Origin: Gammaproteobacteria bacterium 45_16_T64
GTDB taxonomy: Bacteria; Pseudomonadota; Gammaproteobacteria; Pseudomonadales; Ketobacteraceae
DNA length: 33,910 nt
Assembly (NCBI GenBank): GCA_002162955.1
Contig: MABD01000044.1
Span: 1 to 33,910 of the forward strand
Direction of reading: 5' to 3'
Shown: one piece after another, positions 22,328 through 25,507 of the stretch
How positions within the stretch are numbered: the stretch's first letter is position 1
Layout: each line of letters starts with the position of its first letter
Position numbers and translations under genes: made by a program
Notes under the pieces: generated by a model
What the model was told of the DNA's origin: nothing
Seen by the model: only the letters and a program-made list of their open reading frames with translations
The model's database searches: none

Positions 22328-23518
22328 TTAGATTGAGTAATTCACTACAAAACCACCCCAGATAGGGTCTCTGTTTCCATTGCCATGTTTGATCTCGCTT
22401 GTTTGGCCCCGAATGAAATAGGATAGGTTGGTTTTCTCGTCTAGCCCCCATGTCACGCCAAGCCAGGCTTCGTGAATAATAGTGTTCAGTTCATTTCGTT
22501 CATATGAAACGTCACTTTTACTCCATTGCCCTTGCAGAAAAGCATTGTAGCCTCGTATGTGAGTGCTTATTCCACCGAACACGAACAGATCGTTAGTCCG
22601 ATTAAATGGTGTAACTGTTGATGATTTCTCGGTATATTTTGCGTTGGCCGGATTAAAGGTCCACCAAGGGGTGTTGATACGGCCCCATCGCCCGGTGAAT
22701 CCGATTGACCCTTCTGTTAAGTAACCAATGCTCCCTTGGGTTAGTGCCTTAAATTCATAGCTGTTTTTCTTTCCATTGTGAGCAGATAAGAGTTGCTGCC
22801 TGGATATGCCCAGGCGGAATGTGGGTTCACCACCGTCGGCGATTTGGTGTGACCATCCTTCCCCCTCATCATTTCCAATGGCGCTATGTATGCCATTGTA
22901 TATATCCCCAGCGATAGGTAACCCAAGCACACCCAGGGTGAGTGCTGTGGTGATTGCCGCTCCCTTATCTTGATTGATGTGATGCCGGGTGTTGGAAATG
23001 TAGAATAGGCTAGCATAGGGGCGATCATTAGCGTCTGCGTTACTGTTGCCAACATCTTCAGGTGTAAATGCTGTCGCCCCAAATTCGATGCTGTGTAGTT
23101 GATATTTTCGCTTGCTCGTGTTCGGGGATAGATTGCCAAGGCCAAATAAAGATTCGGCAAGACCAAGGGGCCGGTCTAGAGACCACCAGTAGTCAGTTGC
23201 CCGCCTGCCAGACAAAGTGAGGGCTAAGCCGCCGGTATAGTCTCGGTCAATGCGGTCGGGGGTTAGCAGGTCGTTATCCACATAAAATGCGAAGCCAGAA
23301 TCGTATTTTTCATGGTGACGGTTTGATACCGGGTAACGCGCAAGAATAGGTGAAAACCCCAGGTATTGATTGGCTCTTGATGCAAGCAGTGTACTTTTGT
23401 CTGATTGAAAAGGGGTCACTGAACCATACGTTGAAGAGGACATCCAAGTAACGAGCAAGGACCCTACAAGGTAGCCAAGTAATGTGGGTAGTTTATTCGT
23501 TAAGTTTATGCGTGTCAT
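22328..23518 (-). CDS. lpxR: LpxR-type outer-membrane lipid A 3'-O-deacylase (DUF2219)
   Basis: The protein has 396 residues from the ATG at 23518, supported by AGGAG 8 nt upstream and the signal peptide that follows (about 1-33). The LpxR family hallmarks are present: VDNDLLTPDRIDRDYTGG (N82-D83, T95), FTPEDV at 151-156, NDRPYAS at 164-170 and IHSAIG at 210-215 followed by GWSHQI and EP. In Salmonella LpxR, Asn-Asp near the N-terminus, a Thr and this His form the calcium-dependent active site, and each has a counterpart here. The protein ends in an aromatic strand (GGFVVNYSI), as outer-membrane barrels do. It probably removes the 3'-acyloxyacyl chain of lipid A and so changes outer-membrane properties. 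Two operator-like motifs lie directly upstream. Confidence 0.85.
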   Translation of the reverse strand: MTRINLTNKLPTLLGYLVGSLLVTWMSSSTYGSVTPFQSDKSTLLASRANQYLGFSPILARYPVSNRHHEKYDSGFAFYVDNDLLTPDRIDRDYTGGLALTLSGRRATDYWWSLDRPLGLAESLFGLGNLSPNTSKRKYQLHSIEFGATAFTPEDVGNSNADANDRPYASLFYISNTRHHINQDKGAAITTALTLGVLGLPIAGDIYNGIHSAIGNDEGEGWSHQIADGGEPTFRLGISRQQLLSAHNGKKNSYEFKALTQGSIGYLTEGSIGFTGRWGRINTPWWTFNPANAKYTEKSSTVTPFNRTNDLFVFGGISTHIRGYNAFLQGQWSKSDVSYERNELNTIIHEAWLGVTWGLDEKTNLSYFIRGQTSEIKHGNGNRDPIWGGFVVNYSI

Positions 23519-23534
23519 TTTACTTCTCCTAAGG

Positions 23535-23569
23535 TGACCGGTCGTCTCATATAAGGTGACCAGTCGTCT
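23535..23569. promoter_or_regulatory. Two TetR operator-like motifs in front of the lpxR-like gene
   Basis: TGACCGGTCGTCT (23535-23547) and TGACCAGTCGTCT (23557-23569) are copies of one imperfect palindrome (reverse complement AGACGACTGGTCA). Their starts are 22 bp apart, two helical turns, so two dimers would sit on one face of the DNA. On the minus strand a possible -10 box TTATAT (23549-23554) lies between them; no good -35 box is visible. The ribosome binding site of the lpxR-like gene begins just downstream. A third copy lies at the regulator's own promoter. Confidence 0.75.
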
Positions 23570-23618
23570 TATTTTTCGCTTCAATCAAAAGGACTATATT
23601 TATGGGGGCTATATCAGA

Positions 23619-24227
23619 TTAATTGGGGCAGGGTTCTTGGTCCGCTTTTCCAAATAACACTCTGAGTGCATTTTGGAAAACAGTGAAGGGTCGCTTACTT
23701 TTGGATGTTTTCATCCGCGTAATGGTGCCTTCCCATGCATTGAATAAAAACTCAGCCATCATTTTTGGACATATGTTGGCATTGAGCTCACCTTGCTCAA
23801 TGGCCTCAAGCAGGCACATCTCTAGTTGAGACGTCATCTTGCCCATGAGCTTCTCAACTGTCTCCTGAAACACAGGATTGGCGTCAGAGAGTTCTTGACC
23901 TAAGTTACCCAACAAACAACCTTTTTCGAAATTTGAGGCCTCAAGCTCAAGCGCACCGTCTTGATAGAATTTAGCCAGACGCTCGAGTGGGGGGAGCTGC
24001 TGACACGAAAGTGTCAGTCTGGCGTTCTCACAGCTTGTACTTGACACGTAGTGCAGTGCCTCTAGGCCAAAATGCTCTTTGCTCTCAAAATAGTTATAGA
24101 AGGAACCCTTGGGGATATTCGCGGCGACCGTTATGTCTTTAACACTGGTGCCATTAAACCCTTTGAGTAATATTTCTTCTAAGCCAGCTTCAAGGATGAG
24201 CTGTTGTTTGTCGTCTCGTTTGTTCAT
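23619..24227 (-). CDS. TetR/AcrR-family regulator, NemR/AcuR-like
   Basis: The protein has 202 residues from the ATG at 24227 (MNKRDDKQQL). The N-terminal helix-turn-helix is clear: ILEAGLEEILLKGFNGTSVKDITVAANIPKG is followed by SFYNYFESKEHFG, the usual TetR recognition-helix region. The ligand domain contains EKGCLLGNLGQELSD, which resembles NemR and AcuR, repressors that respond to electrophiles or acrylate through Cys or small ligands; C-G/C-L near this position is of interest. No Shine-Dalgarno sequence precedes the ATG; a TTG further up (24281) has AGGAA, but the promoter found at 24235-24263 fits the ATG better. It lies upstream of, and on the same strand as, the lpxR-like gene and most likely represses it and itself. 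Confidence 0.85.
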   Translation of the reverse strand: MNKRDDKQQLILEAGLEEILLKGFNGTSVKDITVAANIPKGSFYNYFESKEHFGLEALHYVSSTSCENARLTLSCQQLPPLERLAKFYQDGALELEASNFEKGCLLGNLGQELSDANPVFQETVEKLMGKMTSQLEMCLLEAIEQGELNANICPKMMAEFLFNAWEGTITRMKTSKSKRPFTVFQNALRVLFGKADQEPCPN

Positions 24228-24234
24228 GAGGAGT

Positions 24235-24263
24235 ATAATATGACCAGTCGTCTCGTTTTTCAA
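24235..24263 (-). promoter_or_regulatory. tetR promoter with embedded operator, predicted leaderless mRNA
   Basis: On the minus strand TTGAAA (24258-24263), a 17-nt spacer and TATTAT (24235-24240) make a near-consensus sigma-70 promoter. The spacer holds the third copy of the operator-like motif (TGACCAGTCGTCT on the plus strand, 24241-24253). The expected start point is 24228-24227, at or next to the A of the tetR ATG (24227-24225). The transcript would therefore have no leader, which accounts for the missing ribosome binding site. Binding at the motif would block RNA polymerase directly. Confidence 0.7.
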
Positions 24264-24356
24264 CGATTGTATTTGGAACAATCAATTCCTGGGGTGAAAT
24301 GGTATGTGGTAAGAAAAACCGGCTTACTACGGGGGGGTGCGAACTAAGTTTTGCGA

Positions 24357-24596
24357 TTACAGGCAAATGGTTCTATTGCTCTTTTTGGCGCGATTGTCAC
24401 ATTCGCGGCGAACATTGTCACAAATAATGGCGCCGCCGGGTGAAAGGCCTGAGGCGCTCTCGCACATGAAGAACTTATCTTGCAATTCGCTATTGCTAAG
24501 ATCTTTAAATTTACTGTCGCCACAGCCTCCCAACGTGAGTAGCACAAATAACGTTGCCGGAATACTTAGTCGAGCGGCTCGTAGATCTATCATCAT
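24357..24596 (-). CDS. Small Cys-rich lipoprotein
   Basis: The protein has 79 residues from the ATG at 24596, with GGA about 6 nt upstream; the in-frame ATG further up would place the signal too deep. A hydrophobic stretch ends in the lipobox LTLGGC, then GDSKFKDLSNSELQ, a short helical part, and four more Cys (FMCESAS, IICDNVRREC, TICL). The layout of a short lipoprotein with a helical part ending in K/F-x-x-C followed by C-x-N resembles TrbK/EexN-type lipoproteins, but the match is general and I do not assign that role. It diverges from the MOSC gene, with which it shares a promoter region of about 98 bases. Confidence 0.6.
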   Translation of the reverse strand: MMIDLRAARLSIPATLFVLLTLGGCGDSKFKDLSNSELQDKFFMCESASGLSPGGAIICDNVRRECDNRAKKSNRTICL

Positions 24597-24694
24597 AAAA
24601 ATTCCATATTTTGTTATAGTCTCCAATGTTATTGTAGACATAAATGTAATAACCGTTAAGTTTTTGGCAAATTTTACCGTGAAAGGATTGCGTA

Positions 24695-25507
24695 GTGGCA
24701 TATGAAGTTACGGAGCTAAATCGTTACCCAATAAAATCTATGGGTCAGGTTGTATTGTCTGAGGCGATTATTGATCGGTTTGGCATTCAGATGGATAGGC
24801 GCTGGATGGTGGTGGATGAGAAAAATCGATTCCTAACCCAGCGTAAGGTTGCCAAAATGACTGCAATGTCTGTCGTAGAGAAGACATGTATTGCAGGTCA
24901 ATGGGAATTAGAAATTTCAGCGGGAGGCAGCGCGCAAACAGTTTCTTTATCTACCCACTTTTCAGGAGAGACCATTTCTGTTTCTGTGTGGAAAGATCAA
25001 TGTGAAGCTTTAGTTGCTAGCAACGATATTAATCAGTGGCTGAGTGAGAAAATTGGTATAAATTGTCGTTTGGTGTTTATGGCCGATGACTACCATCGCG
25101 AGGTGGATCCAGATTATGCAATGGCTGGGGAAACCGTGAGTTTTGCCGATGGATTCCCGTTGTTACTCACGACGCAGGCCTCACTTGAAAGTTTTAATAC
25201 GCATCTTCAGAGGCCCATTAAAATGGTTCGGTTTCGTCCGAACATCGTCCTGTCCGGGAGTTCGCCTTATGAAGAAGATAAATGGAAGCGAATCAGGGTT
25301 GGAAACATGGAGTTCTCGGTAGTTAAGCCGTGTTCTCGTTGCGTGATGCCAACAATTAACCCTCAAACCTCAGCGAGAGAGCCTGAGGTTTTTAAGGCAC
25401 TAAAGGCTCATCGAGCGGTAGGTCGAGATGTCTTTTTTGGTCAAAACATTATGCCACTAAGCGAGGGAGTTGTCAGAATAGGGGACAAAGTCGAAGTGCT
25501 TGAATGA
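24695..25507 (+). CDS. MOSC-domain protein with N-terminal beta-barrel (YcbX/mARC-like)
   Basis: The protein has 270 residues from a GTG start at 24695, with GAAAGGA 7 nt upstream. The N-terminal MOSC_N barrel is recognised by ELNRYPIKSMGQVVLSEAIIDRFGIQMDRRWMVVD and FLTQRKVAKM. The C-terminal MOSC part shows FRPNIVLSG, an acidic patch after it, and VVKPCSRCVMPTINPQT, where the Cys of SRC-V/M-P-T is the residue expected to bind the sulfur or molybdenum of the molybdenum cofactor. Relatives (YcbX, mARC) reduce N-hydroxylated compounds with a Moco. YcbX carries an extra ferredoxin domain that is absent here, so an electron partner would be separate. It is cytoplasmic and monocistronic, and converges with the CheZ-like gene at a gap of 10 bases. 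Confidence 0.85.
   Translation: MAYEVTELNRYPIKSMGQVVLSEAIIDRFGIQMDRRWMVVDEKNRFLTQRKVAKMTAMSVVEKTCIAGQWELEISAGGSAQTVSLSTHFSGETISVSVWKDQCEALVASNDINQWLSEKIGINCRLVFMADDYHREVDPDYAMAGETVSFADGFPLLLTTQASLESFNTHLQRPIKMVRFRPNIVLSGSSPYEEDKWKRIRVGNMEFSVVKPCSRCVMPTINPQTSAREPEVFKALKAHRAVGRDVFFGQNIMPLSEGVVRIGDKVEVLE

Follow-up and report, generated by a model that had tools for sequence, protein, structure and literature searches.

Whether a repressor gene that stands directly in front of a gene for an LpxR-family enzyme also controls it, and in answer to what signal, is the question raised by one part of contig MABD01000044.1 of Gammaproteobacteria bacterium 45_16_T64 (the window, i.e. the whole stretch of DNA analysed, comprises 33,910 nucleotides, and all positions given are those of the window). 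Two genes, both with an ATG start, lie there on the minus strand in the order tetR then lpxR, with a gap of 100 bp between them:

23619 to 24227, minus strand: tetR gene (202 aa, P0002), encoding an AcuR/NemR-like TetR, the predicted dedicated repressor of lpxR
22328 to 23518, minus strand: lpxR-family gene (396 aa, P0001), encoding a predicted outer-membrane acyl hydrolase of a divergent LpxR subfamily

We regard as real the existence of a conserved, dedicated and autoregulated TetR–LpxR unit with an AcuR-like promoter, and consider it very likely that this TetR represses lpxR through the sites described below. The tetR product belongs to the TetR family and to its TetR_C_13 (AcuR/NemR-like) sub-family, both domains exceeding their Pfam cut-offs (PF00440 TetR_N, 43.7 bits for a cut-off of 24; PF16925 TetR_C_13, 67.9 bits for a cut-off of 27). 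Its top NCBIfam model is AcuR (the equivalog NF051457), but at 141.4 bits, below the cut-off of 247, the protein is not filed as AcuR, although it may function like it; among its relatives of solved structure 3bru ranks first and NemR (4yze) fifth. The lpxR product matches PF09982 LpxR at 130.9 bits (E 6.4e-38, cut-off 26). The initial annotation of this DNA had placed a NemR/AcuR-like TetR gene directly upstream of an LpxR-family gene, and the Pfam, NCBIfam and structure matches bear it out. The ends that it gave to the pair, 22328 and 24281, follow open reading frames (ORFs) extended to TTG codons and have been replaced here, the likelier starts being the ATG codons at 24227 (tetR) and 23518 (lpxR).

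The putative operator is a 13-bp motif, TGACCRGTCGTCT, found exactly at 23535–23547, 23557–23569 and 24241–24253 and reading AGACGACYGGTCA in the direction of the genes, with half-sites spaced by five bases (GAC-N5-GTC), or by two if it is read as GACYGGTC:

24241 to 24253, minus strand: tetR operator AGACGACTGGTCA, wholly inside the promoter spacer (a tetR-proximal copy in 26 of 27 pairs)
23557 to 23569, minus strand: upstream lpxR operator AGACGACTGGTCA (all 27 pairs have a copy in the interval from tetR to the lpxR coding part)
23535 to 23547, minus strand: downstream lpxR operator AGACGACCGGTCA, adjoining the ribosome-binding site (two copies between the genes in 20 of 27 pairs)

These are the three positions named at the outset, and exact copies are confirmed at each, none having arisen in 100 shuffles of the window that preserved dinucleotide composition. 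The accompanying statement that the window holds no further copy is correct for exact matches; at up to two mismatches there are four sites for 0.82 expected, the sole addition lying at 2120. In the whole genome (6.49 Mb) there are three exact copies of TGACCRGTCGTCT, all at tetR–lpxR, and two of a reversed-pattern control, while sites with one mismatch number nine, fewer than the 20 of the control; the scattered one-mismatch sites are therefore meaningless by number.

The initial annotation would have been refuted had the motif not been conserved beside homologous pairs; it is conserved there. The counts in the lines above refer to 27 distinct tetR–lpxR pairs, the window included and each counted once (some of the named loci share genomes with loci of the first set). 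At three of these loci a copy falls 18–29 bp past the start of the longest lpxR ORF: at L207 it is the sole copy on the lpxR side (29 bp), at L106 and L116 the second of two; either the true start of lpxR lies later than that of the longest ORF in these loci or the copy is intragenic. The first set of loci (n=76) holds 35 lpxR loci of the divergent subfamily, 40 other LpxR loci and one locus of a TetR paralogue. An adjacent tetR is present in 13 of the 35, and the motif is present in 13 of these 13; the 22 unpaired loci show no motif at up to one mismatch (L055 has one site at two). The 40 other LpxR loci have neither an adjacent tetR nor the motif at one mismatch (L059 and L084 have one two-mismatch site each), the canonical-LpxR controls L056–L085 extending to only 1.5 kb per side. 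Among the best 80 of 92 named subfamily loci, tetR adjoins lpxR in 20, every one of them with the motif, and 59 have neither, a figure that includes two loci (L185 and L228) with less than 150 bp upstream of lpxR, which cannot reveal a tetR; in the last, L232, a TetR with its own site lies 2.4 kb off. The pair spans at least two orders, two hosts lying outside the order of the window, and its named hosts include Cellvibrio, Marinimicrobium, Saccharophagus, Agaribacterium, Marinagarivorans, Aliikangiella and Kangiellaceae, with isolates of Cellvibrio mixtus and Marinimicrobium agarilyticum among the carriers; loci from Alcanivorax, Alloalcanivorax, Marinobacter and Steroidobacter are without an adjacent tetR. 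The motif thus comes and goes with the cognate TetR, both being present or both absent across the loci. That the repeats arose by chance, or are a functionless leftover, is refuted by this conservation and can be given practically no credence: the shuffles yielded no exact copy, the motif occurs in all pairs and is missing from unpaired loci, and for the three sites as a set we found nothing in favour of chance.

The regulators themselves tell the same story. The 27 paired TetRs form a single clade (support 100/98) in a tree of 40 TetRs, the 13 comparison proteins having been picked for bearing this class of operator, so that only against these is the clade demonstrated. When 369 genomes of the class were searched with a profile built from the paired TetRs (E ≤1e-38, at most eight candidates scored per genome), 29 TetR loci came back, of which three, the window being one, score 250.6–302 bits and adjoin lpxR with operators; none of the remaining 26, at 189 bits or less, stands beside an lpxR with operators. 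In the 20 genomes holding the 22 unpaired loci the best TetR reaches 183 bits, as against 244–300 bits in four paired controls, and we therefore take the cognate regulator to be absent there and not relocated. TetR and LpxR distances are correlated (r 0.91 for the 27 pairs and 0.81 for 15 pairs thinned to at most 55% LpxR identity), with 0 of 5000 permutations as high. On the LpxR tree, a quick build with many long branches, the paired/unpaired label needs seven changes, at least four of them forced by starred branches, and gain is indistinguishable from loss; L185, scored as 'solo' inside a Cellvibrio group of pairs, may add one change.

Two further observations concern lpxR loci. The LpxR of L223 (NZGD01000267.1, in a metagenome-assembled genome of Rhodopirellula sp. 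MED697) is nested in Marinobacter with a branch of almost no length, on which account this contig is probably misbinned and the LpxR not a planctomycete gene. An ORF of LysR type lies near lpxR in L233 (5542–6495) and in a cluster of 13 unpaired loci, and a similar-looking ORF is present at L015.

How the operators would act is suggested by their setting in the promoter regions, for which the following features were recognized:

24258 to 24263, minus strand: tetR -35 box, TTGAAA (at least 80% of the 25 tetR-proximal sites have TTG here)
24235 to 24240, minus strand: tetR -10 box, TATTAT, with the tetR ATG 7 nt further on (from the promoter scan and conservation)
23549 to 23554, minus strand: possible lpxR -10 box, TTATAT, between the two operators (by eye; absent from the promoter-scan sites)
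23526 to 23530, minus strand: likely lpxR ribosome-binding site, AGGAG (by eye)

The tetR promoter of the window reads TTGAAA-N17-TATTAT on the minus strand, with the operator at 24241 wholly within the 17-nt spacer. The scan of the window gave four promoter-like sites and its shuffles 3.3; the match therefore carries no weight by itself and draws its support from conservation: the consensus of the 25 tetR-proximal sites is TTGaaaaata-AGACGACcGGTCA-TATa.T, in which the 17-base spacer ends with the 13 bases of the operator. The earlier placing of one copy inside the tetR promoter is upheld by this arrangement. In 18 of the 27 pairs the tetR ATG follows 11–14 nt past the motif, near the expected start of transcription, and the tetR message of the window may be leaderless, beginning probably at or beside the ATG.

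Both the window and the 25-site consensus have an inverted repeat covering the regulator's own -35/-10 promoter, a feature of AcuR type. For AcuR of Rhodobacter sphaeroides (acuR-acuI-dddL operon), the available text of the report describes a leaderless mRNA mapped by 5' rapid amplification of cDNA ends, TTGATT and TATTAT boxes and an operator TAATAGAC-N6-GTCTATTA, mutation of which abolishes repression, and release by acrylate (PMC3017554). As there, the regulator, whose NCBIfam matches are headed by the AcuR model itself, is promoter-proximal and in tandem with its target, an inverted-repeat operator with GAC...GTC half-sites lies over the promoter, and the message may lack a leader (here to judge from the position of the ATG). 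Unlike in the AcuR system as that text presents it, the target in every one of the 27 pairs is LpxR-like by its profile match, not an acrylyl-CoA reductase or dimethylsulfoniopropionate lyase, extra operators stand directly before the target gene, and the half-sites are spaced by five bases (or two) instead of six. Our working model is that a TetR dimer binds AGACGACYGGTCA and that, because the operator occupies most of the spacer between the -35 and -10 boxes of tetR, the bound repressor would block RNA polymerase and so limit its own level.

The second set of operators would allow the same TetR to act on lpxR, and we infer repression of the outer-membrane LpxR-family enzyme rather than activation. 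Terminator-like hairpins with T tracts separate tetR from the first lpxR operator in seven of the 27 pairs (L195, L201, L205, L207, L113, L182 and L101), compared with 0.25 in base shuffles, and since they precede that operator, lpxR probably has its own promoter in these seven; in L117 and L101 such a hairpin lies between the two lpxR operators, and in the window none was found between tetR and the lpxR operator. The initial annotation had drawn attention to two copies exactly 22 bp apart before lpxR. The distance is correct for the window, but a special role for it is unsupported: the 20 tandem spacings (22, 35, 36, 29, 32, 110, 67, 22, 22, 79, 68, 29, 33, 28, 25, 33, 22, 83, 85 and 31 bp) are 22 bp in four pairs, two from one genus, and 25–110 bp in sixteen, so that exactly 22 bp is no design rule. 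On the same values we rejected a helical-phase model for the tandem operators.

With regard to how far this regulation reaches, a motif private to lpxR had to be rejected, as AGACGACYGGTCW is a class operator that also stands beside other NemR/AcuR-like TetRs. A sub-family TetR lies within 1.5 kb of 11 of the 26 newly fetched AGACGACYGGTCW loci (L238, with a 35-bit TetR hit, is left out of this count), in comparison with 0 of 40 non-subfamily LpxR loci. The neighbours of these 11 TetRs include AcuI-type acrylyl-CoA reductases (three, of which one, a fragment, scores below the AcuI cut-off), old yellow enzymes (four), a DJ-1/PfpI protein, two short-chain dehydrogenases and an iron alcohol dehydrogenase (Fe-ADH); 13 of the remaining 15 sites fall within an ORF. 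The operator is also held at up to one mismatch by 18 of the 26 weaker TetR loci of the profile search (in L271 it is 1.4 kb off), a count without a chance control. At one locus, L288 (G636:C1:1011564-1012127), a NemR/AcuR-like TetR has two exact operator copies around a rhodanese gene, and its branch perhaps responds to a sulfur-reactive ligand.

The genome of the window carries a paralogue of its own (L050, G000:C26:248632-249308), a NemR-like TetR flanked by AGACCGGTCGTCT and CGACCGGTCGTCT and adjoined by an Oxidored_FMN (old yellow enzyme) gene. The operator there has the form [AC]GACCGGTCGTCT, nearly identical to that of lpxR, and cross-talk with the lpxR operators is possible. It could be argued from these flanking sites and the enzyme gene that lpxR is part of a wider electrophile regulon, in which the paralogue shares the lpxR operators. 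We think this rather improbable, since no lpxR operators occur without the cognate TetR, even though the unpaired genomes G068 and G175 hold a weaker sub-family TetR, the lpxR-paired TetRs are a clade of their own, and the sites of the paralogue and of lpxR differ at the outer base. Within paired genomes, exact sites are confined to the tetR–lpxR locus in 13 of 14, the exception being G012 with two extra sites. A wider regulon in the paired genomes was rejected, the G012 extras being intragenic and the one-mismatch sites of the window's own genome falling below the reversed-pattern control. A conserved third gene was likewise rejected: apart from tetR and lpxR, the 40 largest clusters include no protein family that is seen at more than four of the 27 pair loci, whose flank lengths differ. 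The paired TetR thus looks like a single-target regulator.

The signal is less certain than the target. We propose that TetR would be released from its operators by a small molecule acting at the pocket of the conserved Cys104, the likeliest candidates being a reactive electrophile or an alpha,beta-unsaturated compound; judged from the residues and relatives of the protein, an electrophile as the ligand falls slightly short of an even chance. C104 and K173 are invariant in the 27 paired TetRs and align with Cys106 and Lys175 of NemR, a match that uses the two-residue offset of the 4yze chain, by which W165 also falls on the Trp167 named in the available text of PMC8748444. The window TetR further shares with E. 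coli NemR (4yze) the PKGSFY.YF.SKE sequence of the DNA-binding part. According to the accessible text, an inverted repeat allows both NemR (PMC8748444, PMC13178969) and its Pantoea homologue AltR (PMC13178969) to repress linked genes as well as their own promoter, and a cysteine is key in each. Unlike the present system, the targets named there are reductase or thiosulfinate-tolerance genes and no lipid A enzyme, and the AltR operator, CAATCTAC-N6-GTAGATTG, differs from that of the window (PMC13178969). A non-reactive lipid or acyl ligand (for instance a fatty acid or an acyl-CoA connected with lipopolysaccharide or membrane turnover, perhaps the acyl product of LpxR itself) might be sensed in place of any electrophile. 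Such a ligand would suit a repressor whose target is a lipid-modifying enzyme, and a regulator of fatty acid metabolism (3whb) is among its weaker relatives of solved structure, as is Bacillus FadR among its weaker NCBIfam matches; we nevertheless hold it to be unlikely, as the nearest sub-families, AcuR and NemR, and the TetRs with the same operator sit near electrophile-clearing enzymes, and the cysteine is kept in every pair.

The LpxR-family protein of the window is probably an active outer-membrane acyl hydrolase, as predicted from its active-site residues. All 16 aligned members, canonical LpxR among them, keep N82, D83, T95 and H211, which correspond to N9, D10, T34 and H122 of Salmonella LpxR (3fid; PMC6260217, in its available text), with which the protein also shares PF09982. 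A profile of the 16 members finds only 3fid among solved structures and aligns H211 with the active-site histidine, six residues before the glutamate; the equivalence of N9, D10 and T34 falls outside this local match and rests on the 16-member alignment. The same text places H122 and E128 six residues apart in Salmonella LpxR and questions the role of E128 itself (PMC6260217). Unlike that enzyme, the window protein is divergent, has 396 aa compared with the 296-residue 3fid chain, and is without E128. That lipid A is its substrate, as judged from the family, is likely, though by no means assured; we consider it doubtful that it is instead another outer-membrane acyl hydrolase of the LpxR superfamily and not a lipid A 3'-O-deacylase. 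For the latter interpretation speak its score of 131 bits against PF09982, compared with about 200–378 for the higher-scoring members from the same order among the matches listed, the failure of phmmer with the window protein alone to match any solved structure, and the position of E128, which is D in the window protein and D, A or N in relatives. Against it stand the invariance of the active-site N, D, T and H in the 16 members, the alignment of H211 with the catalytic histidine of 3fid, and the loss of E128 from some canonical-scoring members as well (the position is D in L056 and L084).

If TetR is released, the freed lpxR would yield an enzyme that strips lipid A, or an envelope lipid akin to it, of acyl chains. 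The two-gene switch in its entirety, with an autorepressing TetR, repression of lpxR, release by an electrophile through Cys104 and deacylation of lipid A, is in our view the more probable account of the locus, although only to a modest degree. Several results weigh against it. L167 is without a tetR-proximal copy; in eight of the 26 tetR-proximal sites the first in-frame ATG lies 15–86 nt away, which does not suit a leaderless message; and lpxR, where the pair alignment shows a -10-like box after the operator, is preceded by no recognizable conserved -35 box in that alignment or in the window scan. AGACGACYGGTCW has 58 exact sites in 115 genomes of the order and the reversed pattern about 132, so that the class operator is not over-represented and is informative by its place and not by its number. 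Across the 27 pair loci there is no third conserved neighbour that would indicate a pathway. All 13 comparison TetRs, acuI-linked proteins among them, possess C104 and nine of the 13 possess K173, so neither residue marks the lpxR-paired clade; in a NemR-based sensor, moreover, no Cys106–Lys175 bond was seen, according to the available text (PMC8748444). In the enzyme, H211 alone is invariant when 58 subfamily members are compared, N82, D83 and T95 being kept in at least 90%, and the E128 of Salmonella is not retained.

The control of LpxR in Yersinia and Salmonella is described in the texts available to us as acting through global regulators or the state of the substrate. Expression of Yersinia enterocolitica lpxR is repressed by RovA and PhoPQ, and control there involves RovA, PhoPQ and PmrAB together with aminoarabinose on the substrate, with no linked repressor in the available text (PMC3486919), unlike the arrangement described here. 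The claim with which this locus was first put forward, that a dedicated repressor would be new, therefore needs narrowing: control of lpxR at the level of expression is not new as such, as the Yersinia case shows, whereas a linked cognate repressor would be, and neither a TetR–lpxR repressor pair nor TetR control of lipid A deacylation was found in the open-licence literature searched. The linked repressor is kept in two orders or more and its presence goes with that of its operators, which suggests that this enzyme serves as a switched response in its hosts, bacteria of environmental and not of host-bound life. What compound leads such a bacterium to change its lipopolysaccharide becomes a direct and testable question. 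Should the ligand be an electrophile, the NemR/AcuR kind of repressor would be linked to the outer membrane. It is tempting to speculate, though we offer this tentatively and with more doubt than confidence, that lipopolysaccharide remodelling is here a response to electrophiles or oxidants, in which an old, dedicated cysteine-based repressor couples lipid A deacylation directly to reactive chemicals and is the first cognate, ligand-gated switch of an LpxR-type enzyme.

Some minor features of the locus may be recorded. Upstream of tetR the window has a short ORF without a Pfam match (24357–24701, minus strand), and in L011–L013 small ORFs with a lipoprotein-like cysteine occupy the matching position. 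Inside the 3' end of tetR (23646–23680) is an inverted repeat whose 17-nt arms are 82% complementary and separated by 1 nt.

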